This document shows, one piece after another, positions 15,453-36,739 of a stretch of 39,367 nucleotides of DNA; position 1 is the stretch's first letter, and every line of letters begins with the position of its first letter. The position numbers and the translations under genes were made by a program. Under the pieces are notes generated by a model. It saw only the letters and a list, made by a program, of their open reading frames with translations. It searched no databases and was not told the DNA's origin. The DNA comes from Acidimicrobiales bacterium (GTDB taxonomy: Bacteria; Actinomycetota; Acidimicrobiia; Acidimicrobiales; UBA8592). The stretch is taken from positions 1 through 39,367 of the forward strand of contig WTHU01000027.1 of assembly GCA_011523005.1 (NCBI GenBank), written 5' to 3'.

Positions 15453-16706
15453 ATGGTGGGCATGCTTTATGTTAACAGCGAGCGCCTGTGGGGGCGAATA
15501 AATGATTTAGCACAAGTTGGGGCTATTGATGGGACACTGGGGTGTTCTCGACTTGCATTGACTGATGAAGATGCTGAAGGAAGACGTCTTGTGATCACTT
15601 GGATGCAGGACTTAGGAATGGATATCGCAATTGATGGAATCGGCAATGTAGTAGGTACGTGGTACGGTCCTGATACGGATCGGGATTTACCTGCAGTTAT
15701 GACGGGAAGCCATATTGACACGGTCAAAACTGGAGGGCGATTTGATGGCAATTTAGGTGTTCTCGCTGGTTTGGAAGTAATTGAAACGATTGCTGAGCAG
15801 GGTCTCTCCCCTGTACATCCAATCTCGGTTGGTTTTTTTACAGGAGAGGAGGGATCCCGATACGCTCCTGACATGCTCGGAAGTCTTGTCTATGTTGGTG
15901 GGCTTGGGCTTGAATCAGCCCTTGATATTAGTGGCATTGATGGCACGAAAGTTGGAGAAGAACTCGACAGAATTGATTTTCGAGGCCAATCTCCATGTCC
16001 GGGCCCGATCCCGAAAGCCTTCATCGAGTTACATATTGAGCAGGGGCCGATTCTAGAAGCGGAAAATATTTCAATAGGGGCGGTGGACAGTGTTCAGGGA
16101 ATAAGTTGGACACAGATTACTATTGAGGGGCAATCCAACCATGCCGGTACTACTCCTATGCATATGCGGCATGATGCCGGTTGGGTTGCAGGAGAGATCA
16201 CATCTTACGTTCGTCACTTGGTTAGCGAGATTGGTGGCAATCAAGTCGGGACAGTCGGAAAAATTGACCTCGTCCCCAATCTCGTAAATGTGGTCGCATC
16301 AAAGGCTACTTTGACCGTTGATCTTCGTAATACTGATGACGAGATTCTCAAACACGCTGAACAAGAGCTTGCGAATTTCTGCGATACCTTGAGCTCTCAA
16401 GAAAAAGTTCAGATCCACCGAGAGGTCTTGGCACGTTTTGAACCAGTTGCGTTTGATAAAGCGTTAGTCGGTGAAGTTATACGCGTCTCTGAGGCATTAG
16501 ACATATCGGTTAAGCAAATGACTTCAGGCGCGGGTCATGATGCTCAGATGTTCGCAAGAGTTTGTCCAGCAGCAATGATTTTTGTTCCTAGTGAGAATGG
16601 TTTATCCCATAACCCCGCCGAATTTACATCTCAAAGGGAGATTGAAGATGGGAGTAATGTGTTACTTCAAATAATGGCTAAGCTTTCTGGACTTCGCCAT
16701 GACTGA
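15453..16706 (+). CDS. M20-type Zn-dependent amidohydrolase: allantoate amidohydrolase / N-carbamoyl-L-amino-acid hydrolase
   Basis: TGSHIDTVKTGGRFDGNLGVLAGLE, FTGEEGSRY, ELHIEQGPILEAENISIGAVDSVQG, SNHAGTTPMHMRHDA, SGAGHDAQMFA, GLSHNPAEFT. Confidence 0.92.
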   Translation: MVGMLYVNSERLWGRINDLAQVGAIDGTLGCSRLALTDEDAEGRRLVITWMQDLGMDIAIDGIGNVVGTWYGPDTDRDLPAVMTGSHIDTVKTGGRFDGNLGVLAGLEVIETIAEQGLSPVHPISVGFFTGEEGSRYAPDMLGSLVYVGGLGLESALDISGIDGTKVGEELDRIDFRGQSPCPGPIPKAFIELHIEQGPILEAENISIGAVDSVQGISWTQITIEGQSNHAGTTPMHMRHDAGWVAGEITSYVRHLVSEIGGNQVGTVGKIDLVPNLVNVVASKATLTVDLRNTDDEILKHAEQELANFCDTLSSQEKVQIHREVLARFEPVAFDKALVGEVIRVSEALDISVKQMTSGAGHDAQMFARVCPAAMIFVPSENGLSHNPAEFTSQREIEDGSNVLLQIMAKLSGLRHD

Positions 16707-17637
16707 GAGAAGTTTACGAGTAGCCGCTGCCCAAATGGGTCCAATTGAAAAGGGCGATTCTAAGTCGGCAGTTGTCGACAGACTTATTACCCTTCTCAGT
16801 CTGGCGTCGGAGGATAACGTAGATCTGATTGTTTACCCAGAATTGGCGCTTACCACTTTTTTCCCTAGATGGTTTGTTGAGAATGAGAATGATCTTGAGT
16901 TGGAATCTTTCTTTGAAGCCAATATGCCAACTCCTGAAACTGAGCCGCTCTTTTTGAAAGCGAAACAGCTAGGGGTTGGGTTTTGCTTAGGTTACGCCGA
17001 ACTTACTGAGGAGGGCGAAAGATACAACACACAAATTTTAGTAGATAACGTGGGAAACATTGTCGGAAAGTACAGAAAAGTGCATCTTCCTGGACATGAG
17101 GAACATGAACCATGGAGGAAATTTCAGCACCTTGAGAGACGTTATTTCCAAGCAGGCGATTCGTTCCCTACCTGGCGAGCTTTTGGAGGCATTGTGGGCA
17201 TGGCGATTTGCAATGACCGTCGTTGGTCAGAGACCTACCGTTCGCTTGCTCTTGGCGGAGCTGAGTTGATCTTGATCGGCTACAACACACCAATCCACTA
17301 TGCACCTGACCCTTCACAAGATAAGCTAGCTTCCTTCCATAGTCGTTTAGTTATGCAATCAGGTGCTTACCAAAATGGATGCTACGTGGTTGGCGTTGCA
17401 AAGGGCGGGATGGAAGAAGGTGTCGAATCATTATCAGATTCATGCATTATTAGTCCGAGTGGTGAAATTCTAGCGGAGGCTAAAACTGATGGGGATGAGT
17501 TGGTTATCGCTGATATTGATTTAGATATCTGCAAGAATTACAAAGAAACATTATTTGATTTCGCTCGTTACCGAAGACCGGAAGCATATAAGGCTATTAC
17601 TAACCAGACAGGGGCTATTTCCCCGAAAGAATTATGA
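16699..17637 (+). CDS. N-carbamoyl-D-amino-acid hydrolase (nitrilase superfamily)
   Basis: YPELALTTFFPRW, GKYRKVHLPGHEEHEPWRKFQHLERRYFQAGD, AICNDRRWSETYR, GYNTPIHY closely follow D-carbamoylase motifs; Glu-Lys-Cys triad intact. Confidence 0.88.
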   Translation: MTERSLRVAAAQMGPIEKGDSKSAVVDRLITLLSLASEDNVDLIVYPELALTTFFPRWFVENENDLELESFFEANMPTPETEPLFLKAKQLGVGFCLGYAELTEEGERYNTQILVDNVGNIVGKYRKVHLPGHEEHEPWRKFQHLERRYFQAGDSFPTWRAFGGIVGMAICNDRRWSETYRSLALGGAELILIGYNTPIHYAPDPSQDKLASFHSRLVMQSGAYQNGCYVVGVAKGGMEEGVESLSDSCIISPSGEILAEAKTDGDELVIADIDLDICKNYKETLFDFARYRRPEAYKAITNQTGAISPKEL

Positions 17638-20210
17638 CTACTTTTGAACTGAATGGCAAAGAGGTTACGGTACAGGGTGACCATCCGCACTTGTTAGCGG
17701 CGTTAAGGGATGAATTGGGTATTCTATCCGCAAAAGATGGATGCTCTCCGTCTGGTCAGTGTGGTTGTTGCACAGTAATTATGGATGGGAAAGCCAGAAT
17801 TTCCTGCCAACTTTCAGCTGAGCGGGCAAATGGATCCACCATTCAGACTCTAGAGGGTCTGGATACAGAAGAAATTGACAAAATGGGGCAAGCGTTTGCA
17901 GCGTGCGGTGCCTTGCAGTGTGGATTTTGTACTCCAGGGATCATGATCAGGACGAAGGTACTTGTTGACAAAAAGGGACCTGAACTTGAAAGAGAGTACG
18001 CTGCGCGCCATTTAGGTGCTCATTTATGTAGATGCACCGGATACGTAAAGATTCTTGATGCTGTTGAGGCACTAGCTAAAGGAGAAATACCTGAAGAGAA
18101 GCATAGTGCGGGCATAGGAAGCAGACTGGTTAAGTATGAGGCTGAAGACCTTGCTATTGGTCGTCGCCCATTTATTGACGACATTCAGGTTGAGGGCCTT
18201 TTGCATGGCGCGTTTCTTCTCAGCGAGCATGCTCGGGCCGATGTTCTCTCGATTGACGCTTCTGAAGCGGAGAGCTTAGATGGGGTTGTGCGGGTTATTA
18301 CTGCCGCTGATGTACCTGGCGAACTTCGTGTGGGGCTTATTCATAAGGACTGGCCTGTGTTTATTCCTGTAGGTGGTAGAACTAGCTATTTAGGTGATGT
18401 GATCGCAATGGTGGTTGCTGAGACACGCGAGATAGCTCGAGCTGCTCGTGAATTGATTCGAGTCGAGTATGATGTCCTCCCCCCTATTACAAACCCTCTT
18501 GAGGCAATCAAGAGCGATGAAAATGCTGTGTGGAAATTAGACGGCAACGTTCTCTCAACTTCACATTACAAGCGGGGGTGCCCAGAAGACGTATGGAGCG
18601 ATTGTGCTCACATCGTAAGCGAAACTTTCCAGACTCAACGTGTTGACCATGCCTTTCTTGAGCCTGAATCTACTTTAGCTACTTTGACACCTGACGGTCA
18701 TTTATACGTCTATAGCGGTGGGCAAGGTATTTGGGACGACAGAAACGATATTTCACGAGTTCTTGATATCGGAACAGATGATGTGACTGTTGAGCTTATA
18801 TCCAATGGTGGAGCCTTCGGCGGCAAAGAGGATATGTCTAATCAGGCACAAACGGCACTCGCAGCATGGCTATTGAGAAAGCCTGTAAAAACTACTTTGA
18901 GTCGTGAGGAATCGTTCCTCATCCATACAAAACGTCACCCTATTCGTCTTGAATACAAGATAGGTTGCGATGAGAATGGAGAGCTCTTGGCTTTATCGGC
19001 AAGAATGGTTGGAGACTCCGGCCCCTATGCTTCCGTTGGGATGAAAGTACTTGAGCGAGCGGCGGGGCACGCCTCTGGGCCGTATGTGATTCCCAATATT
19101 GAAGTTGAAGCGATCGCCGCTAGAACCAATAATTCAGTTTGTGGCGCATTTCGTGGATTTGGGGCCAACCAAGCGCAATTTGCCATGGAAGGCGTGATGG
19201 ATAGATTGGCAGCAATGGTTGGAATTTCTGGTTGGGAGATTCGATCAAGGAACGTCGTTACACCAGGTGCAGTTTGGGGGCCGGGTCAAATAATGGACGA
19301 TGGTTGCTTGGGGGCAAGGGAATGTTTGGATGCTATAAAGCCTGCATACCTTGAGGCGATTGAGCAAGGTAAAGCCGTAGGTCTAGGTTTAGGACTTAAG
19401 AATTCGGGGCTAGGTAATGGATTTAAGGAGATAGCTAAGGCAGTTATTCACTTTACCGATACTGGTCGAATTGAAGTCCGCCACTGTTGGACTGAGATGG
19501 GTCAAGGCGTCCACACCGTAGCGTTACAAGTAGCAGCAGAGGAACTAGGAGTTGAGGCCGACCGCATTGATGTTCTAGTTGATACTTCTCGAGAATTAGG
19601 AGCTGGGCAAACAACTGGAAGTCGCGGAACATTGATGGGTGCCGGAGCTGTCGCTGATGCTTGCAAGAAAGCACTTGAAGGTGGCTGTCAGGTTGGTATT
19701 GATTATGAGGGCGAATACAGAGTTGATTGGACGAACTCGTTGAGTGAGGAGGTGGATAATCCAATAATTCATTCGACTTTTGGATACGCATCTCAAGTAG
19801 TGGTCATCGATAAGGAAACTGAAAAAATTGAAAAGGTTGTTGCTGCGCATGATGTGGGTAAGGCAATAAATCCACTTCTATGCGAGGGACAAATTGAGGG
19901 AGCCGTCCATATGGGTCTTGGATACGCACTTTCCGAAGGGTTTCCTTGTGATGAAGTTGGCCAACCAAGTAACCTCACTCTCAAAAGCCTGAGCATCATT
20001 CGACCGAAAGATATGCCAGATGTGGAAGTTATCCTTGTCGAGTCGCCACAGCCTAACTCCCCCTATGGAATAAAGGGAGTTGGAGAGATAGGTCTTGTCC
20101 CCACAGCAGGCGCCGTTGCAGCTGCGCTAAATGATTTAGACGGTATGTGGCGAAACGAATTGCCTATGGAAGACGAATCTAATCGTGAGCGGGCAGAGGC
20201 ATGGACCTGA
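17634..20210 (+). CDS. fused [2Fe-2S]-molybdopterin xanthine dehydrogenase-family protein, resembling the selenium-dependent XDH/XdhD type
   Basis: N-terminal KDGCSPSGQCGCCTVIMDGKARISC, LQCGFCTPG, HLCRCTGY fused to NGGAFGGKEDMSNQAQ, GAFRGFGANQAQFAME, SPYGIKGVGEIG. ATGA overlap with upstream gene. Confidence 0.88.
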   Translation: MTTFELNGKEVTVQGDHPHLLAALRDELGILSAKDGCSPSGQCGCCTVIMDGKARISCQLSAERANGSTIQTLEGLDTEEIDKMGQAFAACGALQCGFCTPGIMIRTKVLVDKKGPELEREYAARHLGAHLCRCTGYVKILDAVEALAKGEIPEEKHSAGIGSRLVKYEAEDLAIGRRPFIDDIQVEGLLHGAFLLSEHARADVLSIDASEAESLDGVVRVITAADVPGELRVGLIHKDWPVFIPVGGRTSYLGDVIAMVVAETREIARAARELIRVEYDVLPPITNPLEAIKSDENAVWKLDGNVLSTSHYKRGCPEDVWSDCAHIVSETFQTQRVDHAFLEPESTLATLTPDGHLYVYSGGQGIWDDRNDISRVLDIGTDDVTVELISNGGAFGGKEDMSNQAQTALAAWLLRKPVKTTLSREESFLIHTKRHPIRLEYKIGCDENGELLALSARMVGDSGPYASVGMKVLERAAGHASGPYVIPNIEVEAIAARTNNSVCGAFRGFGANQAQFAMEGVMDRLAAMVGISGWEIRSRNVVTPGAVWGPGQIMDDGCLGARECLDAIKPAYLEAIEQGKAVGLGLGLKNSGLGNGFKEIAKAVIHFTDTGRIEVRHCWTEMGQGVHTVALQVAAEELGVEADRIDVLVDTSRELGAGQTTGSRGTLMGAGAVADACKKALEGGCQVGIDYEGEYRVDWTNSLSEEVDNPIIHSTFGYASQVVVIDKETEKIEKVVAAHDVGKAINPLLCEGQIEGAVHMGLGYALSEGFPCDEVGQPSNLTLKSLSIIRPKDMPDVEVILVESPQPNSPYGIKGVGEIGLVPTAGAVAAALNDLDGMWRNELPMEDESNRERAEAWT

Positions 20211-21271
20211 ATGCAAATGAGACTTTTGGTTTAGTCTGCGCCCACCACCACCTCTATTCTTCATTAGCACGTGGAATGCCATCACCAGATAAATTACCAA
20301 GTTCTTTTGGAGATATTCTTAATTCGGTTTGGTGGAAACTTGATAGAGCATTAGATCTTGAAACTATCGAATGGTCGGCGAAATTAGGCGCTCTTGAAGC
20401 TTTGGAAAGAGGGACAACTTGCATAATCGATCATCACGAGTCTCCTAACGCTATTGAAGGTTCATTGTCTGTTATTCAGAACGCTTGCCGTGAGCTTGGG
20501 GTACGAGTCAATACGTGTTACGGAGTAACTGATAGAAATTGCAATGACTTTTCCACCGATATGGCTATGACTGAAGAAGCCAGACGTGGATTAGAAGAAA
20601 ATAGGAGATTTCTTCAAGAGGGTGGTCTGGGTATGGTTGGCATTCATTCCGCTTTCACTTGCACTGATGAAACACTTAATGCTGCTGCACAACTTGCATC
20701 TGACATGGGTGTAGGCGTTCATGTTCATGTAGCCGAAGGAGATTTAGATGCCATTTCGTGGAGGCGACTGCAGCAGCATTCCTCTGATGATTGGATTCTT
20801 GTCCACGGAGTTCTTCTCCCTGATAAGCATCAACTTCGCGGAATAATTATTCATAACCCGAGATCAAATATGAATAACAGCGTAGGGTACGCGGATCCGA
20901 CACGATTTGAGAACCGAGTTGGCTTGGGAACTGACGGTATAGGGGCCGATATGCTCGAGGAGTTTCGCATTGGATATGCGCGACTTCGAGAATTTAACGT
21001 AGAGGAATCGCCGGAAACAGTCTGGAAAATGCTTGATGTGAATACCGCTTTATTTCCTGAGTGTCGTCAGGATAAAGTCACGTGGTCATACAAAGAAATG
21101 GACCCATGGCATCTTGCATTTACCAGTGGTGTTCGACCCGTTCAGATAGAAATTGATGGAAAGCATATAATGAGAAATGGCGAATTCCTCGACATTGATT
21201 CCGCTGAAATACGAGCTAAAGCTGGTGAAGCAGCAGAAAAGCTCTTTAAAAAAATAAAGGAGCTAGTATGA
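20201..21271 (+). CDS. ssnA: SsnA-like amidohydrolase, short form lacking the usual N-terminal beta-domain
   Basis: [94 protein letters not shown] resemble E. coli SsnA. Confidence 0.85.
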
Positions 21272-22275
21272 CACAACCTGTCGGTCTATATCTGCAGGAT
21301 GCACATTCGATTGAAGAGGCAATAGGCTTTGCTCAAGCCGCTGAAGCAAAAGGTTTTGAGTCGGTCTGGCAAGCTGATTCAAGGCTCGTGCGTGAGTGCT
21401 GTGTTCCTATGGCAGCATTTGCTGCGAAGACATCGAGCGTAAAAATCGGCAGTGGAGTGATTGATTGTTGGACAAGAAATCCGGCACGAATCGCATCAAC
21501 ATTTTCAACTCTTGATGACTTAGCACCTGGAAGAATCATTCTAGGTATTGGAGCCTGGTGGGATCCCTTAGCATCAAAAGTAGGAGTTGACCGCAAAAGG
21601 CCACTTAGAGTTATGCGAGAAGTTGTTGAGTCAGTGCGCGCTTTACTGCTTTGCGATGGGCCTGTCACCTACCAAGGCGATTACGTTCAATTAGATGGTG
21701 TTGAGCTTGACTATATTCACCAAGAACGAGTTGCTAAAGACGTCCCGATCTACATTGGCGCAACCGGCATGAAAATGATGGAACTAACAGGAAAGATTGG
21801 TGATGGTGTTGTCTTAAACTACATGGTTGAACCAGCATATAACCTGAGAGCAATGGAGGCGTTGGAGAAGGGTGCCCGATCAGTTGGTAAAGATCTGGAC
21901 GATATTGATCGCCCTCAGCTTATCGTCTGTTCTGTAGACGAGGATCGGCAAGCTGCCCTTGATGCAGCCCGTTTGCTCCTGACCCAATATCTTGGGCAAC
22001 AACCCCACATCATGGCTGCAAGTGGAGTCAGCGAGGAATTACTGAATGAAATTCATCAGGTTTTATCTTGGCCTGCTACCAATGAAGAGGTAAAAGCAGC
22101 TTCCAAGCTAGTACCAGATGATGTTGTTCAACGCTGTACAGCATCGGGAACACCGGAAGAAGCGAAGGCCAAAGTGAAAGAATACCTTGATGCTGGTTGC
22201 ACCTCCCCTATTCTCTACCCTTTGGGGCCTGATGTTCAGTTAATGATTGATTCTTTTTCGGACTGGAAACCTTAG
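21268..22275 (+). CDS. LLM-class (putatively F420-dependent) oxidoreductase
   Basis: [84 protein letters not shown]. Confidence 0.88.
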
Positions 22276-24249: not shown

Positions 24250-25548
24250 GTGCCGAGAACTGTTATACGAGGAGCGAGATACCCCGGAGATCTAGCCTTT
24301 GAGGATGGAATAATTACCGAACTTGGGGTAGTTGATCAGAAGGATAGCGATGTGGAGCTTCGATATGATGACGCCATCATTACCCCCGGTTTGATTAATA
24401 CGCACCATCATTTGTATCAGTGGATGACAAGAGGAATTGCAACGGGTTGTAACCTTTTTGAGTGGCTCCAAACCCTTTATCCAGTATGGAAGAAAATGGA
24501 CGTAGAGGATGTCTATTCAGCTGCGGTTGTTGGTTTAGGGGAATTAGCATTAAGTGGCTGTACTACTGCGTTTGATCATCATTACGTAGTTCCGGATGGT
24601 GATGATTCGGTTTTCGATGTAATTGTGGATGCAGCAAAACTTGTTGGGATACGTATTTTCCTTAGTAGAGGTTCTATGGATCTTGGGGAAGCAAACGGTG
24701 GTCTTCCGCCAGATAATTTGGTTGAGGAGCGAGATTCAATACTTGCTTCTACAGAACGTATAATCTCCAGTCACCATGATGGCGATATGGTGAATATTGT
24801 TGTCGCTCCTTGTAGCCCTTTTTCTGTGACAGAAGGTTTGATGATTGATTCTGCTAGCCTCGCTCGTAAACACGGACTTCGGCTTCATACTCATTTATGT
24901 GAAACCATTGACGAGCAGGAACACTGCATAGAACGATTTGGGAAGAGACCGGCTGAACAGTTATTTGAGTGGGGATGGACTGGGGATGATGTTTGGTTTG
25001 CACATGGAATTCACTTTTCAGAGAAGGAGATTACGTTACTTGGAGAGGAAGGAACAGGAGTTGCGCATTGTCCCTCATCAAACGCCCGACTCGCTGCCGG
25101 CATGTGTCCCGTCACTGATCTTCTGCAAGCGAATGTTCCGGTTGGACTTGGAGTGGATGGAGTTGCCAGCAATGAGGTGGGCGGGCTCTTCCCCGAGTTA
25201 AGACAAGCTCTTTATACCGCTCGCTTGAGAGAAATGCGCCCGGATGCCTTAATGCCTAGGGACGTTCTCGATCTTGGAACATCCGGTGGTGCCAGGTGCC
25301 TAGGGGCGTCAAAATCAGGTAAGTTAGCTGTCGGATTCAATGCAGATTTTGCAGTGTGGGACGTATCTGATCTAGCCGGCGTTCGAGATCCAATTTCCGG
25401 TCTAGTTTTAGGTCCTGACAGGAAGGTTCTTGATCTTTTCGTTGGTGGCAAGCAAGTAGTTAAAGACGGAGAACTTCTTGGTTTTAGTCTTTCTGATGCT
25501 CATAAATCGCTGTCAAAGCGCTCTAAACGCTTATGGGAACACACTTAA
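24250..25548 (+). CDS. 8-oxoguanine deaminase-like amidohydrolase
   Basis: NTHHHLYQWMTRGIATGCNLFEWLQTLYPVWKKM, SRGSMDLGEANGGLPPD, HTHLCET, HCPSSNARLAAGMCPV, GLGVDGVASNE. Confidence 0.78.
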   Translation: MPRTVIRGARYPGDLAFEDGIITELGVVDQKDSDVELRYDDAIITPGLINTHHHLYQWMTRGIATGCNLFEWLQTLYPVWKKMDVEDVYSAAVVGLGELALSGCTTAFDHHYVVPDGDDSVFDVIVDAAKLVGIRIFLSRGSMDLGEANGGLPPDNLVEERDSILASTERIISSHHDGDMVNIVVAPCSPFSVTEGLMIDSASLARKHGLRLHTHLCETIDEQEHCIERFGKRPAEQLFEWGWTGDDVWFAHGIHFSEKEITLLGEEGTGVAHCPSSNARLAAGMCPVTDLLQANVPVGLGVDGVASNEVGGLFPELRQALYTARLREMRPDALMPRDVLDLGTSGGARCLGASKSGKLAVGFNADFAVWDVSDLAGVRDPISGLVLGPDRKVLDLFVGGKQVVKDGELLGFSLSDAHKSLSKRSKRLWEHT

Positions 25549-26391: not shown

Positions 26392-27804
26392 ATGATGAGG
26401 CTAATTCGCGGAGGAACAGTCGTTAACGCAAACCATACTGGGCGTTATGAGGTACTGATAGCAGGCGAAAAGATAGCTGCGTTAATTGACCCTAATAGTG
26501 ACATGTTGGATTCTGTAGAGAGCTGGGATTGTGAAATAATAAATGCTTCGGGGAAATACGTAATCCCAGGAGGCGTAGATTCCCATGTCCACCTTCAACT
26601 ACCTATGTCTGATGAGGCAACGTCCAGTGACACGTTTGAATCTGGGACGCAAGCTGCAGCTTGGGGTGGAACTACTACTGTTATTGATTTCGCAGGGCAG
26701 ATAAAAGGTTCTTCGGTACCAGATGCAATAGAGTCTCGTCTAGCTGAAGCTGAGGGACAATGCGCAATTGATTATTCTCTTCACCTTTCGGTTGGTGACG
26801 TTCATACACAATCGTTAATTGATATTCGAAACACTGTTGACTCAGGGATTACAAGTTTTAAGCTATTTATGGCATATCCGGATGCCTGGTATTCCGATGA
26901 TGGCCAAATACTGCAGGTAATGCAATTAGCAGCTGAAACAGGTTCCATGATTATGATGCACGCTGAGAACGGTATTGCTATCGACGTATTGAGAGAACAA
27001 GCCGCTACTCAAGGGAAACTAGGTTCAGTTTGGCATGGGCGAACCCGTCCACCAGAACTAGAAGGAGAAGCAACCCACAGGGCAATACAGTTAGCTGTAG
27101 TTGCGGGAGCTCCGTTGTATATCGTTCATTTGTCCTCAGTGAATGCGTTAAAAGAAGTTTCTCGGGCGCGTGATGAAGGTCGTAACGTGTTTGCTGAAAC
27201 TTGCCCCCAATACCTATATCTGACACTGGAAGAACACCTAGATCAAACAGGTATTGACGGTCTAAGACATATCTGTTCTCCTCCTCTTCGTTCGTCGGCG
27301 GAAAATCATCAGGATAACTTATGGATGGGTCTCAGAACAGATGATTTATCTGTGGTCGCAACTGACCACTGCCCATTCTGTGATGCAGAAAAACTCTTGG
27401 GGGCTGAAGATTTCAGAGATACACCGAACGGCTTAGGAGTCATTGAGCACCGCATGGATCTCCTATATCAAGGAGTTCTAACAGGGGAAATCACCTTGCA
27501 GAGGTGGGTTGAGTTATGTTCAACCACCCCAGCTCGACTTTTTGGACTTCAAGGAAGAAAGGGCATTATTGCTCCGGGCGCTGATGCCGATATTGTGATT
27601 TTCAACCCGAAAACGGAACATGTTCTTGGAGCTAGCACCCACCATATGTCAATTGATTATTCCGTTTGGGAAGGCATCAAAGTTCAAGGTCAATCAGAAA
27701 GCGTAATTAGCCGGGGTTCATTTGTAATTCGAGACAGGAATTTTGTTGGTAAGTCTGGACACGGAGAGTTTCTGAAACGTTCCCTTCCGGAACCGTTGCG
27801 TTAG
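26392..27804 (+). CDS. dihydropyrimidinase / D-hydantoinase
   Basis: YVIPGGVDSHVHLQLPM, GTQAAAWGGTTTVIDFA, SFKLFMAYPDAWYSDDGQI, HAENG, YIVHLSSVNAL, ETCPQYLYL, VVATDHCPF. Confidence 0.92.
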   Translation: MMRLIRGGTVVNANHTGRYEVLIAGEKIAALIDPNSDMLDSVESWDCEIINASGKYVIPGGVDSHVHLQLPMSDEATSSDTFESGTQAAAWGGTTTVIDFAGQIKGSSVPDAIESRLAEAEGQCAIDYSLHLSVGDVHTQSLIDIRNTVDSGITSFKLFMAYPDAWYSDDGQILQVMQLAAETGSMIMMHAENGIAIDVLREQAATQGKLGSVWHGRTRPPELEGEATHRAIQLAVVAGAPLYIVHLSSVNALKEVSRARDEGRNVFAETCPQYLYLTLEEHLDQTGIDGLRHICSPPLRSSAENHQDNLWMGLRTDDLSVVATDHCPFCDAEKLLGAEDFRDTPNGLGVIEHRMDLLYQGVLTGEITLQRWVELCSTTPARLFGLQGRKGIIAPGADADIVIFNPKTEHVLGASTHHMSIDYSVWEGIKVQGQSESVISRGSFVIRDRNFVGKSGHGEFLKRSLPEPLR

Positions 27805-28751
27805 GCAGGCAGCAGAATAGATGCTATCTGGTCAAGGTATTTTTTAGGATCAGGCATATCAAACATTGGTATCAAGAATTCGTCAACTTCGTTCTTGTCA
27901 CAAATCTCTCTAATTTCTTCTTTGCACTCCGAAGGAGTTCCTTGAATTATGAATGGAGCAATCCATTCATCCTTAACATGCCGAGCAGCTGATTCAAGAC
28001 CGCTGCCCAATGCAGAGCGGATCCTACCAATTTCTTCCGGTGTTATCCCTATACTTTCTTTAACTCGGGGCGGTGCATCAACGAGCCTGTACGTCATATG
28101 AGGTCTGACGAACTCAAGGTCCTGCTCATCAGTTACGATGGCGGTTGAGTAACATACTTTTGTTTTCTTACTGTGCCTTATGTTCTCTATATACTCACCT
28201 AATTCTGGCTTATAGATAAAATCTAACATGACGCCATCTGCCAATTCTCCGCCGAGGGCGAGCATTTTTGGACCTCGACCAGCAAGCCATATCTCAATAT
28301 CTTGTCGTGTGTAGTCTATTTGTGCCGACTCTATGGATGCAATTAGCCCCTCATGTGAAACTCTCTTCCCTGTGAGAAGTTTGCGCGTAATCTCAATTGT
28401 GTCCCTTACAGCAGTTAAAGGCTTCTCTCTTCTGATTTCGAGAGGGTCCAAAGTAAGCGAACCTCCTGCACCGATTCCAAGAAATGCTCTTCCCTTTGAT
28501 AGTTCATCTAGAGTCATTATCGCAGCCGCTGTTTGGGCAGGATGACGAGTGTAAGGGTTTGTGATTCCCGGCCCTATTTCAATAAGGTTTGTTTCAAGCG
28601 CAATGGCAGTCATGACGATATGGACGTCCCTTGTTGCTAGCCCCTCGTCATATACCCAACACCTCTGATAGCCAAGATTCTCAGCATGTTTTACTACTTG
28701 CACTATTTGTTCAATTGGGCATTCTGGAATAACGTTTAAACTTATTTTCAT
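27801..28751 (-). CDS. LLM-class (putatively F420-dependent) oxidoreductase
   Basis: AENLGYQRCWVYDEG, IGPGITNPYTRHPAQTAAAIMTLDELSKGRAFLGIGAGGS, GPKMLALGGELADGVMLDFI; homologous to 21268..22275. Confidence 0.88.
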   Translation of the reverse strand: MKISLNVIPECPIEQIVQVVKHAENLGYQRCWVYDEGLATRDVHIVMTAIALETNLIEIGPGITNPYTRHPAQTAAAIMTLDELSKGRAFLGIGAGGSLTLDPLEIRREKPLTAVRDTIEITRKLLTGKRVSHEGLIASIESAQIDYTRQDIEIWLAGRGPKMLALGGELADGVMLDFIYKPELGEYIENIRHSKKTKVCYSTAIVTDEQDLEFVRPHMTYRLVDAPPRVKESIGITPEEIGRIRSALGSGLESAARHVKDEWIAPFIIQGTPSECKEEIREICDKNEVDEFLIPMFDMPDPKKYLDQIASILLPA

Positions 28752-29488
28752 CTCTGGGCCTCAAGATCTTCCTCAAAAGATACACCAATTAGTTGCCTTT
28801 GAGAGTCAATTTCTTTGACTGCTTCGTGGAGTTCTCTTACTAATTTCGTATTTTCTTCGCTGACTTTTGTTACCGCAATGATCATTTCTGATTTGTGTGG
28901 GAGTTCTTTTAGGCTGCCCCTTTGCGAGAGAAGAACCTTTGCTGCAGAAGCTGGAGTCAACCTTTGGTAGGGTTCGCACTCAGCTATTGCGGCCACTCGT
29001 AACGGTCTGTGACATTGATCTGCTATTACTCTACCTAGTGCGTCAGCACCGATAACTGAGATCATCAGTGTCGTTTTTGATGGGATTACTGGTTCATAGT
29101 CTGCTGGGGCTTTAAAAGGTTTTCTTCTAGATCCATCTGCCTCTACAACAACATGATCAACATATGAGAACCATGAATCGCAGGTTTGCTTTTCCACGCC
29201 GATAGCTTTTTCTCCCACAACTTTTTTCCAGATCATTACTGTCTCATTGTTTGTGATTGATTCAATGGCTTTCGCATCAGGTCTCATGAGTGTTCGAAGG
29301 TCATAGTTTTGGTCAGACCCCATTTTTGTCGTAGACGTCAAAATAGTACGCCCGGATAGCTGTTTTCCAAGAGCATGGAGCAAAGTGGTCTTACCGCCTC
29401 CGCCTACTAACGAAATAAGATGATTTTCTCCTTTCCTATCTAATCCCAAACTTTTGACAAGACTTGGAAGGCTTATAATTTCAAACAC
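28748..29488 (-). CDS. yqeC: selenium-dependent hydroxylase accessory protein YqeC-like
   Basis: LISLVGGGGKTTLLHALGKQL, TSTTKMG, VVVEADGSRRKPFKAPADYEPVIP, SVIGADALGR. The probable GTG start at 29488 replaces the upstream-extended ORF. Confidence 0.85.
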   Translation of the reverse strand: MFEIISLPSLVKSLGLDRKGENHLISLVGGGGKTTLLHALGKQLSGRTILTSTTKMGSDQNYDLRTLMRPDAKAIESITNNETVMIWKKVVGEKAIGVEKQTCDSWFSYVDHVVVEADGSRRKPFKAPADYEPVIPSKTTLMISVIGADALGRVIADQCHRPLRVAAIAECEPYQRLTPASAAKVLLSQRGSLKELPHKSEMIIAVTKVSEENTKLVRELHEAVKEIDSQRQLIGVSFEEDLEAQR

Positions 29489-30264
29489 GAAAACACCGCC
29501 TCTAATACCCCTCCACCTATAGATAATGCTTTGTCGGAGATATACCTCCAATTGTCTGTTCGTCTAGGGTCAATATCACCTATTTTCATATTCTGTTTTG
29601 TCATTACCAATGGGTGTATCAAACCCCTAACTACCCCATCAAATGGTGCGTTGATTGTATCCTCTGCTATGAAGCCGAGGGTTTGATTTCTAACAACTGA
29701 CTCTCCTATTTCAACATTCCAGTGGACTTGTCCATCTTTCGGGGAACGAAGAACACGTTCATCTCCCCTGCCTTCTACTGGTTCCGGCCGGCCTGTATTC
29801 TCTATTGCTTTCCCATCTTTTATAACTCTTCCTAAGAAATGCCCTCTTTTCGTTTCGATGACAAAGTCACAATCACGGCCTGCGGTAAACCCGGGCCCTA
29901 AACCGACGACGATGTTCGCATCGGAAATCGTGGTATCAATATTTTTCTTTGCAAGGCGTCCATCAATTACTATTGATGCGTCTATCTTCGGAATTCCTTC
30001 ATTTACCAGTACGGCGACAATTCCCTCTCTACTCTTTGTGATTGCCTTTGATACAGAATCAACTAATTGCACGGACATGTTCTCAATGTGAGTAGATTTT
30101 TCGTAGACCGCATTCGCTACAGAAACTGAACGACGAACTGCTAGTGGAAATGGCAACTCAGTAACCACAATCGGGAATCCAGCATGGTGAAGTCGAGATA
30201 CTACCCCAGTCGCTATATCGCCTCCTCCGCGGATGAGGCATAGTTCTTTACGGAAGATTGTCAC
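29473..30264 (-). CDS. yqeB: selenium-dependent molybdenum cofactor maturation protein YqeB-like (EF2563/YqeB family)
   Basis: IRGGGDIATGVVSRLHHAGFPIVVTELPFPLAVRRSVSVANAVY, VVGLGPGFTAGRDCDFVIETKRGHFLGRVI, NAPFDGVVRGLIHPLV, GDIDPR. Confidence 0.88.
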   Translation of the reverse strand: MTIFRKELCLIRGGGDIATGVVSRLHHAGFPIVVTELPFPLAVRRSVSVANAVYEKSTHIENMSVQLVDSVSKAITKSREGIVAVLVNEGIPKIDASIVIDGRLAKKNIDTTISDANIVVGLGPGFTAGRDCDFVIETKRGHFLGRVIKDGKAIENTGRPEPVEGRGDERVLRSPKDGQVHWNVEIGESVVRNQTLGFIAEDTINAPFDGVVRGLIHPLVMTKQNMKIGDIDPRRTDNWRYISDKALSIGGGVLEAVFSCLKL

Positions 30265-31018
30265 CTGCGATTACCTCAGCCAGAATGGAAACTGCTATTT
30301 CTTCAGGGCTTTCAGCAGCTATCTCTATTCCAATAGGAGTTGCTATGCGTTCTAATTCTTTCGTGCTCATACCTGAATCGATAAGTTGGTTTCTTACTAC
30401 TTTCCAACGCTGAGTACTGCCCATTAAGCCAATGTAAGCAGCCGGAGTCTCTACAATCAAAGGCAAAACTTTGGAATCGACTTCGGCGTTTCTAGTAACG
30501 ATGATAACTCTGGTGTGTTCATCAATTGGTTCAATTTGGATTGCGGTTGACAAGTCGCCCGTTAACGTTTCACCCTCACCTGTAAATGTAGAAATGATGT
30601 CTTCACGGTCATCCCAGACTATTACTCTGTATCCCAGCCAGCTTGATAGTTCTGAGACTGCTTTACCGATATGTCCAGCTCCGAGAATAAATATTGTTGT
30701 TTGTGGCATAAATGGCTCCAGATAAATTGTGACATTCCCACCGCACACGCCTGGGTCTCCTTGTGAAGGGTCGACTAATGCGTAGGTGAGTTGTCGGGGT
30801 TTTTTCGCTTTAATTGATTCTTTCGCTGCATGGATTACACGTGATTCCATCTCGCCTCCACCTATTGTTCCATAAGTGGAGCCGTCCTCATGTACGAGCA
30901 TTTTTGCACCAGCTTTTCTGGGGACAGAACGGTCAGTTTCAATAACCGTGCATAAAACAACTGGCTGCCTAAGTGAAATCCTAGTCAGTAATTCCTCAAA
31001 GATTTTCATGCCGACCAC
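30248..31018 (-). CDS. xdhC: XdhC/CoxF family molybdenum hydroxylase maturation factor
   Basis: LCTVIETDRSVPRKAGAKMLVHEDGSTYGTIGGGEMESRVI, FILGAGHIGKAVSELSSWLGYRVIVWDDRE, YIGLMGSTQRW, PIGIEIAAESPEEIAVSILAEVI. Confidence 0.93.
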   Translation of the reverse strand: MVGMKIFEELLTRISLRQPVVLCTVIETDRSVPRKAGAKMLVHEDGSTYGTIGGGEMESRVIHAAKESIKAKKPRQLTYALVDPSQGDPGVCGGNVTIYLEPFMPQTTIFILGAGHIGKAVSELSSWLGYRVIVWDDREDIISTFTGEGETLTGDLSTAIQIEPIDEHTRVIIVTRNAEVDSKVLPLIVETPAAYIGLMGSTQRWKVVRNQLIDSGMSTKELERIATPIGIEIAAESPEEIAVSILAEVIAGDNLP

Positions 31019-32316
31019 AGTCTTCTGGCTTGCTTGTGCAATGCGTCTCTGGCTTGATTCACATCAATGGAAAGGATTTCATTGCCTTTTACCTGCCACG
31101 TGCCAGCGACCATGACGTCCGACACGTGTTCACGGTTTCTCCATAATATAATTTGTTCAAAGATGTTCTCACTGGTGACTGGAGTTGGGAATCGGCCATC
31201 GATAAGTTGTAAATCAGCTGAATAACCGGGCTCTAGTTTCCCGACATCTTTAAGTCCTAGAGCCTTTGCTCCCCCTACGGTCGCCATATTAAGCACTGTT
31301 GAGGCTGGCATAACTGCTGGGTCTTGCAACCTTGCTTTATGGATGAGGAAAGCTCCGCGCATGACTTCATAGAAGTCGTTGATATAGCCGTCACTGCCTA
31401 AACCTACTGTAACTCCTGCATCAAGTAATTCTGGGATAGGTGCTATTCCTCCACCGACTTCACAATTTGCAAGAGGCATATGGGTAACTTTTACGCCTGT
31501 ATTTTTGATTATTTCTATTTCTTCTTTAGATAAGTGAACGCATTGACTGGCGATGAAATTTGAGTCGGCTAGACCTAAATCCTTGTAAAGTTCGAGAGGT
31601 CTTTTCCCATGTTTTTCTTCACACCACATACCTTCATGTTCTCCTTCGTTGCAATGTGCATGGACTGCTAATTTGCTCTGCTTCGCTAGAGAAAATGCTT
31701 CGGCGATGAATTCTTGTGAACATGTAAAAGTTGTGTGAATACACATCATCGCTGAGATCAGCGGGTCATCTAGAGTTCTTTCGTGAAATGATAAATTCTC
31801 TTGAATTCCAAGTTTCCCTATTTCATTTCCTGATCGTTCCGTGGCTTCAAAGCTCAGAATTCCTCTGATCCCTGCGGACACAACTTCATCCTTTTGGGTG
31901 TCTAGCCCACCCGGCAAAGTATTTGGGGCTTCAAGGATGTCGTAGAAGGTAGTTGTCCCAGATAAGAGCATTTCTGCGCATGCCCATTTAGTTGCTGCAG
32001 ACAGCATCTCCTTATCAAGAGCGTCTTCTACCTTTGGCCACCAATAATCGTTTAAAAATCCCCAAAAATCTTCAGGTGGATTATCACTTGGTATTCCATG
32101 TGCCAGGACTCCGTACATATGTGTATGGGCGTTAACAAAACCAGGGAGCAAAATCTTCCCTGTCCCATCGATGAGTTCGTCTTCAGGGTACTTGGCTTTC
32201 AGTTCGTGATTATCACCGATTTCTGTAATCTGGGTGTTTTGCACACGAATACCGTGAGATCTCAGAGGTTCCTCTTGAGAATTGGCAATAAGCCAGTCTG
32301 AGGTAATGATAGTCAC
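31006..32316 (-). CDS. amidohydrolase family protein (SsnA/chlorohydrolase/SAH-deaminase-like)
   Basis: LLPGFVNAHTHMYGVLAHGIPSD, VHAHCNEGEHE, CVHLSKEEIEIIKNTGVKVTHMPLANCEVGGGIAPIPELLDAGVTVGLGSDGYINDFYE. Confidence 0.88.
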   Translation of the reverse strand: MTIITSDWLIANSQEEPLRSHGIRVQNTQITEIGDNHELKAKYPEDELIDGTGKILLPGFVNAHTHMYGVLAHGIPSDNPPEDFWGFLNDYWWPKVEDALDKEMLSAATKWACAEMLLSGTTTFYDILEAPNTLPGGLDTQKDEVVSAGIRGILSFEATERSGNEIGKLGIQENLSFHERTLDDPLISAMMCIHTTFTCSQEFIAEAFSLAKQSKLAVHAHCNEGEHEGMWCEEKHGKRPLELYKDLGLADSNFIASQCVHLSKEEIEIIKNTGVKVTHMPLANCEVGGGIAPIPELLDAGVTVGLGSDGYINDFYEVMRGAFLIHKARLQDPAVMPASTVLNMATVGGAKALGLKDVGKLEPGYSADLQLIDGRFPTPVTSENIFEQIILWRNREHVSDVMVAGTWQVKGNEILSIDVNQARDALHKQARRLWSA

Positions 32317-33059
32317 GCTAGGGCTCCCCCATCGATTCTGATTGATTCTCCATTTATATGTTGCGCTTCATCTGTGATCAGATAGGAAATTAGTCCTGCC
32401 ACGTTTTCTGGTTCGGAGAATTTATGAAGCGGACTTTGACGCAGAAGCAACTTTAGATCTGGGTCTTCAATTTGAGGCATTTTTGTCATTTCTGTTTTGA
32501 TACCACCTGGATTTATGCAGTTTACTTGGAGGCCTTTCCCGCCATACTCAACTGCTAGTGATTTAGTTAGAGCTAGTACGCCGGCTTTGCTTGCCGCATA
32601 GGCTACCGAGTATGGGATACCAGCGAGGGCTGTTGTGGAGGAAACATTGACAATCGATCCTGATGTTTTCAGAAGGTAAGGAATTGCTTCCCTACAGACT
32701 AAGAATGTTCCTGTTAGGTTAACTGCCAAGGTCCTTTCAAAGTCTGTCAATGAGTGTTCATGGGAGTGGCTCCAGAGTTGGATACCAGCAATGTTGATAA
32801 CTGCATGTATCTCACCAAATTGCTTGGCCATCCCAGAAATAGCTTCTGAAATCTGCATTTCATTTGATACATCGCATTCTATGCTGATGGTCTCAGATCC
32901 TAGGCTTTGACATTCTTTTGTGGTCTTTTCGAGTTTATCTTTCGCTATGTCAGCCAAAACGAGTGATGCCCCCTCTTCCGCGAGGCGAAGTGCTGTTGCT
33001 CTACCTATTCCTGTTGACGCTCCGGTTAAGAAGATGGCTTTGCCTTGATGCTGGCCCAT
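32313..33059 (-). CDS. SDR family oxidoreductase
   Basis: KAIFLTGASTGIGRATALRLAEEGASLVLADI, INIAG, YAASKAGVLALTKSLAVEYGGKGLQVNCINPGGIKT. Confidence 0.93.
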   Translation of the reverse strand: MGQHQGKAIFLTGASTGIGRATALRLAEEGASLVLADIAKDKLEKTTKECQSLGSETISIECDVSNEMQISEAISGMAKQFGEIHAVINIAGIQLWSHSHEHSLTDFERTLAVNLTGTFLVCREAIPYLLKTSGSIVNVSSTTALAGIPYSVAYAASKAGVLALTKSLAVEYGGKGLQVNCINPGGIKTEMTKMPQIEDPDLKLLLRQSPLHKFSEPENVAGLISYLITDEAQHINGESIRIDGGALA

Positions 33060-33065
33060 AGTGGC

Positions 33066-35990
33066 TTAAATTTCTGATTTCCTGATCTTTTGCCAGACGC
33101 GTTCAGGAGTAAATGGAATTTCATTAATAGCGACGCCAGTTGCGTTGATTATTGCATTTCGGATAGCTGGGGCGACTCCATCTTTCGGTATCTCAGCGAC
33201 AGCTTTGGCTCCGAAAGGCCCCGAATCTTCCATAGTTTGGACTAGGAACACTTCAAAGTCTGGCATTTCATCAGCTCGATATATCTTGTATGGCCCCAGA
33301 CTGTCATTGATCATTTTCCCTGTTTCATCAAATGCGTATTCTTCGCAATGGGCATAGCCGAGAGCTTGGAGCATTCCACCTTCTACTTGGCCAGAAGCTG
33401 TGACGGGGTTAATTGCTACACCGCAGTCAACTGCCATAACAAGTTTGATAATTGTCACTTGGCCGGTATCTATGTCCATTTCTATTTCTGCAAACTGTGC
33501 TGCGAAAGGAGCAGGGCATTCAGGTGATACGTAGGAAGCTGTCCCCATTATTTGTTCGTGGTCTTCCAAGTGAAATGCCTCCATCGCTATATCTTCAATT
33601 GATACGGATGACCCGTCGGGTGCTATTGCTTTTCGGTCACGCAATTCAATTGAACAGGGCTCTTTGATATTCAGCATTTTTGCTGCGCGCTCTTTAATTC
33701 TTTCTCGTACCTTTTCAGCGGCAAGCTTTGCGGCAGTTCCCGAAATGTAGGTTGTACTGGATGCGTATGCTCCCGTGTCGAACGGAGTCACGTCTGTATC
33801 TGATGAGTAGACCTGGATATCACTTAAGGGAACCCCTAGAACTTCTGCCGCTATTTGACCAAGTACGGTATCGGCTCCAGTTCCGAGGTCGGTCGCTCCT
33901 ACCAACATGTTAAAGGACCCATCATCATTGATTTTGATACTGCATCCGCCCATGTCCAAGAACGGTATGGCTGTTCCATGCATGCAGAACGCGAAACCCA
34001 AGCCTCGCCGGATATTAGGCTGATCTTTCGGGGATACCCATTCAGGGTCGTCTTTTCGGTGCCATTTGATTGACCTCTTACCCTGAGCGATACATTCTTC
34101 AATTCCATTTGAGGTTATTTTTGGATATTCATCTATATCCTCTGGGTCTACTGCTCTTTCACCAAGATGGGGAGCGATATTCAACTCGTCACCCACTTTG
34201 ACCCAGTTTTGCCGCTTGAATTCAATGGGGTCTTTGCCCAGAGAGTGCGCTATATCTTCCATGTGTGCTTCCAATGCGAATTCTGCTTGCGGAGCGCCAT
34301 ATCCTCTGTATGCTCCAGCGACAGGAGTATTGGTGTAGACGACATCGCAGTCAAATTTCTTGTTTTCAGCGTTATATGAGGTTAATCCTCGAAGACCTGC
34401 AACTGTCTGAACAGTTTGGCCATGCGTTCCGTAAGGACCTGTATTGCCGATTAAGCGAAGCTTTTGGGAAACGAGTTTTCCGCTGTCTTCAACGCCTGTT
34501 GTGAAGGTTAAGGTTTGCGGATGTCGCGACCGAGATGCAATAAATTCTTCGCTTCTATCAAGTTCGAGTTTTACTGGCCTTCGTGTTGCTATTGCAAGAT
34601 GAGCAACTATATCTTCAATGAGCATTTCTTGTTTCGCTCCGAACCCTCCGCCTATTCTCGGCTTGATGACGCGTACATCCTTAATATCTCTTCCAATTAA
34701 AGGTGCAAGCATTCGTCTAACGTGGAATGGTACTTGTGTGGCGGTTCTAACAACTAGTCGCTCATCGCTGTCTAGCCACGCCACAGAAATATGGGGCTCA
34801 ATAGGAACCTGTTGCACTTGATGCACTTTGAATGTGTCCTCAAAGACGTGATCAGCTTCTATTGCTCCTTTTTCAACATCACCTCGCTCAGCTTCGATTC
34901 TCAAAACGATATTTCTATCGGCATCATATATCTCTTCGGTGTCCGCCTCGTCATGAATTACCGGAGAGTCGGGTTCCATTGTTTCTATTTCATCAAGCAC
35001 ATATGGCAGGATTTCATATTCAACTTTGATGAGGTCTAATGCTGCTTGAGCAATTTCTTTTGTTTCTGCGGCTACAGCTGCGACTCTATCCCCTACATGT
35101 CTGACCTTATTATCAAAACTTACTTGGTCATGCGGGTGGGGGTTAGGCCAGCTTTGCCCTCCGGAAGCGTACTTTACTCGGGGAGTATTCTTATAGTGTA
35201 TGACTGCGTGCACTCCTGGAAGTGCTACTGCTTTTGTGTCATCTATATCAATGATGTTTGCGTGAGCGTGAGGACTCCGAAGCACTTTTGCGATGAGTTG
35301 ACCTCTTTCTTCAAAATCATCAGTAAATGCCGGATTCCCTTTCACCAAACGAACAGCATCCACCTTTACTTCTGGTTTACCTACAACTGCCATGTCGGGA
35401 ACGTCTTTCGAGGGGACAACTCTCGGCACAGCTGGAGAAGCATCTGGACCGTGATCAGTCGGGCTGACATCAACTGGATTCTTTCCATCGGTGAGAGGGG
35501 GAAGATATACAGGTCCAAAGGGCTCGTTTGTTTCGCCCCGCATTAGAGCTGCTGCGCGCATGACAGCTTCTACAGGCTTAACGTATGCAGTTTCGCGGTC
35601 AAGAATTCCAGAGAGCATATCTCTTACTTCATGTTCTGTTGGGTTGGGATTTCGATTAAGCAATTCCCATGTTCCAAGTATCATCGCTGGTGTTGAGTAC
35701 CCGGATTGCATAGCGCCTGTCGCTACGAATGCTGCTTGGATTGGATGGAGTTCAGGTTTATTAAACCACTCAACGGTTATGACATCATGGCCATCAATTT
35801 GGGCAGCCAGCATACAATCGGTACTAGTTAGTTTGCCATCTATCAAGACTGCGCCAGCGCCTGTTTCGCCGGAGTCCGAACCGTAGCGGACGCTTATCAT
35901 TCCGCGTTGACGTAGTAGTTGCAGTAAAGTTTCGTGAAGTTCTATTTCGGTTTCTATTTGCTGTTCGTTTAAGGAGAAGGAAATTTTCAT
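33066..35990 (-). CDS. xanthine dehydrogenase-family Mo-binding protein with fused N-terminal ferredoxin-like domain lacking Fe-S cysteines
   Basis: Mo domain: RIGGGFGAKQEMLIEDIVAH, GAYRGYGAPQAEFALE, GAYASSTTYISGTA, GPFGAKAVAEIPKDG. N-terminus: RYGSDSGETGAGAVLIDGK ... AMQSGYSTPAMI ... GILDRETAYVKPVEAV. Confidence 0.9.
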   Translation of the reverse strand: MKISFSLNEQQIETEIELHETLLQLLRQRGMISVRYGSDSGETGAGAVLIDGKLTSTDCMLAAQIDGHDVITVEWFNKPELHPIQAAFVATGAMQSGYSTPAMILGTWELLNRNPNPTEHEVRDMLSGILDRETAYVKPVEAVMRAAALMRGETNEPFGPVYLPPLTDGKNPVDVSPTDHGPDASPAVPRVVPSKDVPDMAVVGKPEVKVDAVRLVKGNPAFTDDFEERGQLIAKVLRSPHAHANIIDIDDTKAVALPGVHAVIHYKNTPRVKYASGGQSWPNPHPHDQVSFDNKVRHVGDRVAAVAAETKEIAQAALDLIKVEYEILPYVLDEIETMEPDSPVIHDEADTEEIYDADRNIVLRIEAERGDVEKGAIEADHVFEDTFKVHQVQQVPIEPHISVAWLDSDERLVVRTATQVPFHVRRMLAPLIGRDIKDVRVIKPRIGGGFGAKQEMLIEDIVAHLAIATRRPVKLELDRSEEFIASRSRHPQTLTFTTGVEDSGKLVSQKLRLIGNTGPYGTHGQTVQTVAGLRGLTSYNAENKKFDCDVVYTNTPVAGAYRGYGAPQAEFALEAHMEDIAHSLGKDPIEFKRQNWVKVGDELNIAPHLGERAVDPEDIDEYPKITSNGIEECIAQGKRSIKWHRKDDPEWVSPKDQPNIRRGLGFAFCMHGTAIPFLDMGGCSIKINDDGSFNMLVGATDLGTGADTVLGQIAAEVLGVPLSDIQVYSSDTDVTPFDTGAYASSTTYISGTAAKLAAEKVRERIKERAAKMLNIKEPCSIELRDRKAIAPDGSSVSIEDIAMEAFHLEDHEQIMGTASYVSPECPAPFAAQFAEIEMDIDTGQVTIIKLVMAVDCGVAINPVTASGQVEGGMLQALGYAHCEEYAFDETGKMINDSLGPYKIYRADEMPDFEVFLVQTMEDSGPFGAKAVAEIPKDGVAPAIRNAIINATGVAINEIPFTPERVWQKIRKSEI

Positions 35991-36739
35991 GCTTGTAGCT
36001 CCTCAGAAACCCGTTTGTAGAGAACAGATGCAAGATGTTTTCTATAGTCACTTGATCCTCTGAAGTCGCCTTGAGGGTTAAGGTTTGCGAGTTCGTCAGC
36101 TGCAGTGATAAGGGTAGGTACTTCTGCGACGCCGGTTAGTGAAACTTGAAATTTTCCTTTTGATTCTGAATATCCGACTGCAGAAACGATAGGTACGTCC
36201 ATTGGTGTTCGGCCTACAGTATGGAAACATGAGTTGGAATCGTGAGATGGGCTAGAGAATTTGATGGCGGTAATTATTCCTGTTGGCGATGAGGATTGTA
36301 AATATTCGTTGAGTGGTATCCAATTCTTTTCGTGTATTTGAATTTCGGCATTAAGGGCAAGGAATCCGGAGAGTAATATGCTTTCACTACTTCGCTCAGC
36401 GATAGTTCCTCCGATAGTGGCTTGAGTTCGCAATGTTGATGGAAGTTCTTTGCTGCACAATTCTTGAAGCAAGTGAGGGATTTTGTCGTTGTTGATTAAA
36501 TCAGAGAGCCTTGACATAGCTCCGATTTTTATTGAGGTTTCACTTCCTTCGCTTTCGGATGTTATTCCGGCTAGGCCAACTGATTGCAAGTCAATAATTT
36601 CTGTTTCGCTGGATGGATTCGCGAGAACTTGAGGTATCACGAGAGTGCCGCCTCCTATTAGGACGGCATTCTTTTCGGATGCTAACTTCTGAGCTTCATC
36701 AAGGCTTTGAGGGCGGTGATAAGCAAGTACGCTTGGCAT
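35987..36739 (-). CDS. FAD-binding (CoxM-like) subunit, short/divergent
   Basis: RPQSLDEAQKLASEKNAVLIGGGTLVIPQV, LRTQATIGGTIAERSSESILLSGFLALNAEIQI; ATGA overlap with the downstream XDH-like gene. Confidence 0.75.
   Translation of the reverse strand: MPSVLAYHRPQSLDEAQKLASEKNAVLIGGGTLVIPQVLANPSSETEIIDLQSVGLAGITSESEGSETSIKIGAMSRLSDLINNDKIPHLLQELCSKELPSTLRTQATIGGTIAERSSESILLSGFLALNAEIQIHEKNWIPLNEYLQSSSPTGIITAIKFSSPSHDSNSCFHTVGRTPMDVPIVSAVGYSESKGKFQVSLTGVAEVPTLITAADELANLNPQGDFRGSSDYRKHLASVLYKRVSEELQA

Follow-up and report, generated by a model that had tools for sequence, protein, structure and literature searches.

The question raised by the locus described here is how a molybdenum hydroxylase can work when the cysteine ligands of both of its iron-sulfur clusters have been replaced. 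The xanthine-oxidase-family enzymes are textbook electron relays (Mo, two [2Fe-2S] clusters and flavin adenine dinucleotide, FAD), and the enzyme in question, an XdhD-like protein, is encoded within the window, i.e. the whole 39,367-nucleotide stretch of DNA that was analysed (contig WTHU01000027.1 of an Acidimicrobiales bacterium, our contig C55 of a 1.95-Mb assembly, 88% complete). The region 33066-36739, which the original prediction treated as one finding, covers two genes, and these are listed below together with the three former cluster sites.

33066..35990, minus strand: XdhD-like molybdenum hydroxylase, 974 amino acids, with ferredoxin-like, helical Fer2_2-like and Mo domains and 0/8 [2Fe-2S] Cys (open reading frame, Pfam, alignment)
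35987..36739, minus strand: FAD-type subunit, YgfM-like, 250 amino acids, fast-evolving (open reading frame, Pfam, profile, divergence)
35811..35882, minus strand: former N-terminal plant-type [2Fe-2S] site, residues 37-60 (GSDSGETGAGAVLIDGKLTSTDCM), ligand positions S38, T43, G46 and D58 (alignment to L109)
35685..35708, minus strand: former helical-domain site, residues 95-102 (QSGYSTPA), ligand positions S96 and S99 (alignment to L109)
35583..35603, minus strand: former helical-domain site, residues 130-136 (LDRETAY), ligand positions D131 and E133 (alignment to L109)

The frame of the Mo protein is uninterrupted, and in Pfam searches the protein matches Fer2_2 (63.9 bits), the a/b hammerhead domain and both MoCo domains, with no match to Fer2. 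Upon its alignment to L109, a relative in which all eight ligand Cys are present, a Cys is found at none of the eight positions, so that the two [2Fe-2S] clusters with eight Cys by which the xanthine-oxidase family is recognised are lacking and the earlier claim that essentially all of these ligands are gone holds true. The fourth N-terminal site, described earlier as shifted or lost, is in fact lost (D58); the residue C59 located beside it should not be interpreted as a shifted conserved ligand, as it is not present in most relatives. In an AlphaFold2 model (mean predicted local distance difference test score 79.9, predicted template modelling score 0.82) the Cys-less domain has a normal fold; confidence is low for the cofactor loops and for residues 131-133 in the loop of the former cluster. 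Based on these sequence characteristics, it is practically certain that the loss of the clusters from this enzyme is real.

A search for relatives with the same Cys-less motifs, suggested earlier as a check, found them throughout the closest loci. When 85,462 species genomes were scanned, the 80 best loci (65-97% identity; mostly from Acidimicrobiia, some from Chloroflexota and one from Propioniciclava) were all found to lack the ligand Cys and to share the conserved replacements GSxTGETGA, QSGYS and LDRET. A homologue of the window clade is encoded by Propioniciclava tarda DSM 22130. As these 80 loci come from independent assemblies, chance or sequencing error is insufficient to explain their identical replacements. 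Among the 85 rows of the window clade (counting at each position those with a letter), S96 is present in 84/84, D131 in 84/85 (the other having C) and E133 in 85/85, and the variable positions have S, T or A at residue 99, A, S, G or D at site 3 and S or A at site 1. The ratio of nonsynonymous to synonymous substitution rates (dN/dS), in a comparison resting on three loci (L001, L002 and L003), is 0.055, 0.055 and 0.021, respectively, for the ferredoxin-like part, 0.021 and 0.016 (L001 and L002) for the Mo domain and 0.16 for the FAD subunit, which is looser than the other two parts. The purifying selection on the ferredoxin-like part thus nearly equals that on the Mo domain, and the shared replacements and low dN/dS bear out the earlier view that the ligand loss is selected rather than random decay. 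These results show that the enzyme has retained the ferredoxin-like fold under constraint and, as reconstructed from the relatives, that the loss of the two [2Fe-2S] sites occurred once, in the ancestor of a clade spanning Acidimicrobiia and Chloroflexota, and that the sites have stayed without Cys ever since.

To place this loss, fused relatives of the same architecture were gathered from Chloroflexota, plasmids and E. coli K-12, and a tree was built on the Mo domain alone, excluding the trait region (single-matrix model, long branches flagged, the E. coli pair being placed less surely than the window clade). The window clade (support 100/100), within which L107 keeps a single Cys (LCRET), has as its sister L108, which keeps 8/8 Cys (support 100/100). 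In a second Chloroflexota clade only the N-terminal cluster has been lost (D[ST]D[GA], helical CCCC); this clade consists of the fused Mo hydroxylases L110, L112-L114, L116, L119-L122, L126-L128 and L130-L132, where the site reads GVKFGDEQGLTGADTV. The opposite partial loss, of the helical cluster only, is seen in L118 (CCCC SDSE), and hence either cluster can be lost separately. Both clusters are lost in E. coli XdhD (DADS SNSD), whose relative from Cetobacterium keeps 8/8 Cys. Parsimony on this tree requires three losses per cluster, and approximately unbiased (AU) tests reject the forced single-clade groupings (p 1.9e-81, 1.2e-9, 9.8e-39 and 0.001). One ancestral loss common to the window clade and E. 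coli XdhD was thus rejected (p 1.9e-81), and so was a single loss shared with the N-terminal-only clade or with L118. In all three independent losses of the helical cluster the first site has become Ser and the fourth site acidic. The E. coli K-12 xdhD gene (b2881, L087:15317-18187) is annotated with an Fe-S binding subunit, yet its protein has 0/8 Cys (NSDDGFGFAGSD, QSGYNDPA, FSRDAGW).

The gene for the FAD-type subunit overlaps the start of the Mo gene in a stop/start ATGA, as noted earlier, and it adjoins the Mo gene in 72/73 loci. The window's subunit retains the GGGT and TIGG loops. The FAD/Mo divergence ratio is 3.3-4.1 in the window clade, as compared to 0.76 and 1.66 in two groups with eight Cys. 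In the loci L111, L124 and L129, all Cys are kept and the FAD subunits are degenerate and fast-evolving; relaxation of the FAD subunit may precede Cys loss, and the state seen in these loci is possibly a first step towards losing the clusters. The FAD subunits of L066, L068, L079 and L080 (Chloroflexota) have lost both the AGG and TIGG FAD loops and still adjoin the Mo gene. In L107, L118, L108 and L115, no FAD gene was detected near the Mo gene (the adjoining open reading frames were checked in three of the four). That FAD is wholly absent in L107 (L154), L118 (L155), L108 (L153) and L115 (L161) was rejected, as a whole-genome search found unlinked FAD_binding_5 genes, some of them weak matches like that of the window.

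The Mo domain, in contrast to the relay, is intact as originally predicted: the motifs GGGFGAKQ, RGYGAPQ, DLGTG and GAKAVAE are conserved and the Mo-site motifs are invariant in the clade, so that the GGGFGxK, RGxG and catalytic Glu expected for the family are all present. The following sites are of importance.

34629..34652, minus strand: GGGFGAKQ Mo-site loop, residues 447-454, its Gln common to E. coli XdhD (alignment)
34158..34160, minus strand: E611, matching Glu606 of E. coli XdhD and conserved as Glu in 85/85 window-clade rows (alignment)
33192..33224, minus strand: SGPFGAKAVAE, including the catalytic Glu E933 (motif alignment)

The Gln following GGGFGAK was earlier held to argue against xanthine oxidation; this evidence is not specific, since the same residue is common in relatives with eight Cys and is present in E. 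coli XdhD. Glu606 of the latter enzyme has been proposed to orient urate (PMC12507026).

How, then, are electrons exchanged? Since the clusters are absent, the classical Mo-FeS-FeS-FAD relay is inoperable, and of the earlier statement that another path, a borrowed subunit or non-classical chemistry must be used, the exclusion of the classical relay stands and the borrowing of 12648-13145 is not supported. The sequence evidence makes it very probable that the internal relay is not used. The explanation that in our view accounts best for the whole, and which has about an even chance of being correct, is that of an XdhD-type Mo enzyme whose relay module has turned into a cofactor-free scaffold and in which Mo itself takes up and releases the electrons. 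On this view, the Mo site would be shaped or shielded by a scaffold poor in cofactors, made up of the ferredoxin-like domain and the FAD subunit. The enzyme would act on an oxopurine, and the SsnA-type hydrolase and the F420-type reductase would come after it in the pathway. The Mo centre would need no relay, as small molecules at the active site would give or take its two electrons. In its simplest form this would be a substrate-to-substrate oxygen transfer; for example, the hydroxylation of one oxopurine could be paired with the dehydroxylation of urate, so that xanthine would in sum be converted to yanthine. That the chemistry is specifically substrate-coupled has rather less than an even chance, and it is somewhat unlikely that the enzyme is a relay-free transhydroxylase in a xanthine-oxidase fold, whose Mo (possibly Mo-Se) would move oxygen between purines, e.g. 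converting xanthine to yanthine via urate. If the latter were true, the enzyme would do without its two Fe-S clusters, and some lineages without FAD too, and E. coli XdhD would represent an independent example. The pyrogallol-phloroglucinol transhydroxylase, whose Mo shifts oxygen between substrates with no net redox change, is a mechanistic analogue only, as it belongs to the dimethyl sulfoxide-reductase family, has an unrelated fold and retains Fe-S clusters.

The reading in which the relay is replaced by chemistry at Mo has to be weighed against the possibility that the enzyme is a urate reductase, as proposed for XdhD-YgfM, with a non-canonical entry of electrons. In this case Mo would be reduced along a shorter or rearranged path for which no clusters are needed, the electrons coming from FADH2 in the YgfM-like subunit or from an external donor (F420H2-linked, ferredoxin or flavodoxin). 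In the structures of this family the two clusters bridge Mo and FAD, and the distance is excessive for direct tunnelling; moreover, several window-clade FAD subunits lack both FAD loops and the subunit is weakly constrained. Several observations weigh against the preferred reading, and those on the retention of FAD and on NADH also favour such an entry. The FAD gene has been kept beside the Mo gene in nearly all loci, with GGGT and TIGG in most copies, and in the window and most other loci FAD may still be bound. Further, the group L111/L124/L129, with all eight Cys, has a divergence ratio of 3.83, so the relaxation of the FAD subunit is not strictly tied to Cys loss. Also, the Mo protein, whose best match is TIGR03313, scores 688 bits against a cut-off of 1102 and is thus not a strict member, so its substrate could differ from that of XdhD. 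Lastly, purified E. coli XdhD-YgfM is reported to form yanthine from urate and NADH (PMC12507026), and it has 0/8 Cys; there, electrons must somehow pass from NADH to Mo, which argues against purely substrate-coupled chemistry in E. coli XdhD. The physiological electron donor of this enzyme class (XdhAC) is given as unknown in a review (PMC12990295). Non-canonical entry is a possible explanation, with rather less than an even chance. The shuttling of electrons between substrates by Mo agrees with the finding that each cluster has been lost more than once and that the FAD loops of some lineages have decayed, and an unrecognised electron route into Mo fits the reported NADH activity; we favour relay-free chemistry at Mo without choosing strongly between these two.

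Other explanations have far less to commend them. An intact 8-Cys subunit (12648-13145) is encoded in the same window and could in principle be borrowed from another Mo hydroxylase, but it belongs to a separate PucD-type xanthine dehydrogenase (XDH) operon (11800-15403), and the Cys-less domain, being still fused, folded normally in the model and constrained (dN/dS 0.02-0.055), should itself fill the docking site; borrowing is thus very improbable. Nearly as improbable is that the acidic and hydroxyl replacements coordinate some other metal or a cluster with unusual O ligation. The fixed S96, D131 and E133 and the recurrence of Ser at the first and an acidic residue at the fourth site are in its favour, but the remaining ligand positions vary, which fits poorly with a four-ligand site, and the acidic residues are explained more simply by charge compensation for the lost anionic cluster. 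Decay, a pseudogene or an assembly error, to which the disappearance of both cofactor sites might point, is refuted by the comparative data and dN/dS: the 974-residue frame is intact, 80 relatives carry identical replacements, purifying selection is strong and the operon is conserved. Its likelihood is negligible.

The preferred reading, of relay-free chemistry at Mo, places the enzyme in a purine pathway, and this is based on the operon, which extends on the minus strand from 36739 to 27801 and in which the FAD and Mo genes are followed by these genes.

32313..33059, minus strand: short-chain dehydrogenase, seen mainly in closest relatives (Pfam, neighbourhood)
31006..32316, minus strand: SsnA-like amidohydrolase, best NCBIfam matches to SsnA, 279-280 against cut-offs of 444-455 (NCBIfam, neighbourhood)
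30248..31018, minus strand: XdhC-family Mo-cofactor maturation factor (Pfam, NCBIfam)
29473..30264, minus strand: YqeB, selenium-dependent Mo hydroxylase maturation, over cut-off (profile match)
28748..29551, minus strand: YqeC, selenium cofactor biosynthesis, over cut-off (profile match)
27801..28751, minus strand: luciferase-like (LLM) F420-type oxidoreductase, candidate yanthine/oxopurine reductase (Pfam, profile, neighbourhood)

In loci with at least 6 kb downstream, XdhC is present in 49/55, YqeB in 46/55, the SsnA-like gene in 44/55 and LLM in 37/55. In L069 and L075, YgfK (43-44%) and an SsnA-like gene (59% to the window's second copy) occur beside the Cys-less enzyme. YqeB and YqeC are markers of selenium-dependent Mo hydroxylases (PMC2276186), and both of these, as well as SelD, are found in the window's genome. 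The SelD gene (L173:1501-2418, minus strand, genome contig C174) has an in-frame TGA within its HGAGUGCK stretch, so that SelD is a selenoprotein too, and this small-genome lineage appears from its sequence to use selenocysteine. Neither uricase nor YgfK was found in the genome, whose assembly is incomplete, and F420-type LLM genes are present beside the Mo operon instead of the latter. As Chloroflexota SsnA clusters are reported to have an F420 luciferase-family gene in place of YgfK/UacX (PMC12507026), the operon matches the Chloroflexota type, and of the genes expected for reductive urate metabolism (YgfK or UacX, or an F420-type reductase) it carries the last. Taken together, the neighbours, SelD, the uricase result and E611 suggest that the pathway is a reductive, selenium-linked one for purines (urate). 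Since the operon matches reported reductive-urate gene clusters, the substrate is, somewhat more probably than not, an oxopurine of such a pathway, most likely urate, yanthine or xanthine.

Of the systems already known, E. coli XdhD (TIGR03313) with YgfM (TIGR03312) resembles the window's enzyme in its fused ferredoxin-like and Mo domains, separate short FAD subunit, 0/8 Cys, QSGY helical site, Glu606 equivalent, GGGFGxKQ and SsnA/YqeB/YqeC neighbours. However, the identity is only ~37-39%, the Cys were lost independently, the other ligand sites carry other replacement residues, and the window has an F420-type reductase where YgfK was not found in the genome. The Cetobacterium somerae XdhD-like enzyme (L088, uricolytic cluster) is similar in its fused architecture, FAD subunit and SsnA/YgeY/HyuA neighbours, but keeps 8/8 Cys. 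The best fold matches, with the same domain order (and, for the D. gigas enzyme, over the whole length), are the D. gigas and D. desulfuricans aldehyde oxidoreductases (1sij and 1dgj; template modelling scores 0.75/0.80), which differ in having two intact [2Fe-2S] clusters in their structures and an aldehyde substrate. The nearest PDB sequence to the Mo domain is that of 4-hydroxybenzoyl-CoA reductase (1rm6), an enzyme of reductive dehydroxylation chemistry which, unlike the window's enzyme, carries its clusters on a separate FeS subunit and has a 4Fe-4S cluster in addition. By its fold and Mo site, as judged from sequence and model, the window's enzyme is an XdhD-like member of the xanthine-oxidase family that lacks the two clusters and falls below the TIGR03313 cut-off.

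These results are of significance in that a lineage has retained its catalytic site while the relay was repeatedly discarded, E. coli XdhD included. In the work on the latter, electron transfer from NADH via the FAD of YgfM to Mo was assumed (Li et al., PMC12507026); this NADH-FAD-FeS-Mo route cannot hold as drawn for XdhD, and the donor in urate reduction becomes a directly testable problem for an enzyme now applied in gout probiotics. The annotations naming XdhD an Fe-S-binding subunit are also corrected by its 0/8 Cys. The word cysteine does not occur in the main text of PMC12507026, and in the literature searched (subscription literature being outside the search) no mention of the missing XdhD ligands and no description of an Fe-S-less Mo hydroxylase of the xanthine-oxidase family was found.

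The window also contains a second cassette (17634-22275, plus strand), which encodes a Se_dep_XDH-like fused enzyme with all eight Cys (813 against a cut-off of 830 bits), another F420-type LLM and an SsnA-like protein that lacks ~60 residues of the N-terminal end of the profile, and which adjoins the PucD-type XDH operon. An 8-oxoguanine deaminase (24250-25548, plus strand; 537 bits, over the 532 cut-off), an allantoate-amidohydrolase-like gene (15453-16706) and a xanthine-phosphoribosyltransferase-like gene (11225-11731) form part of what is apparently a purine-catabolism island.

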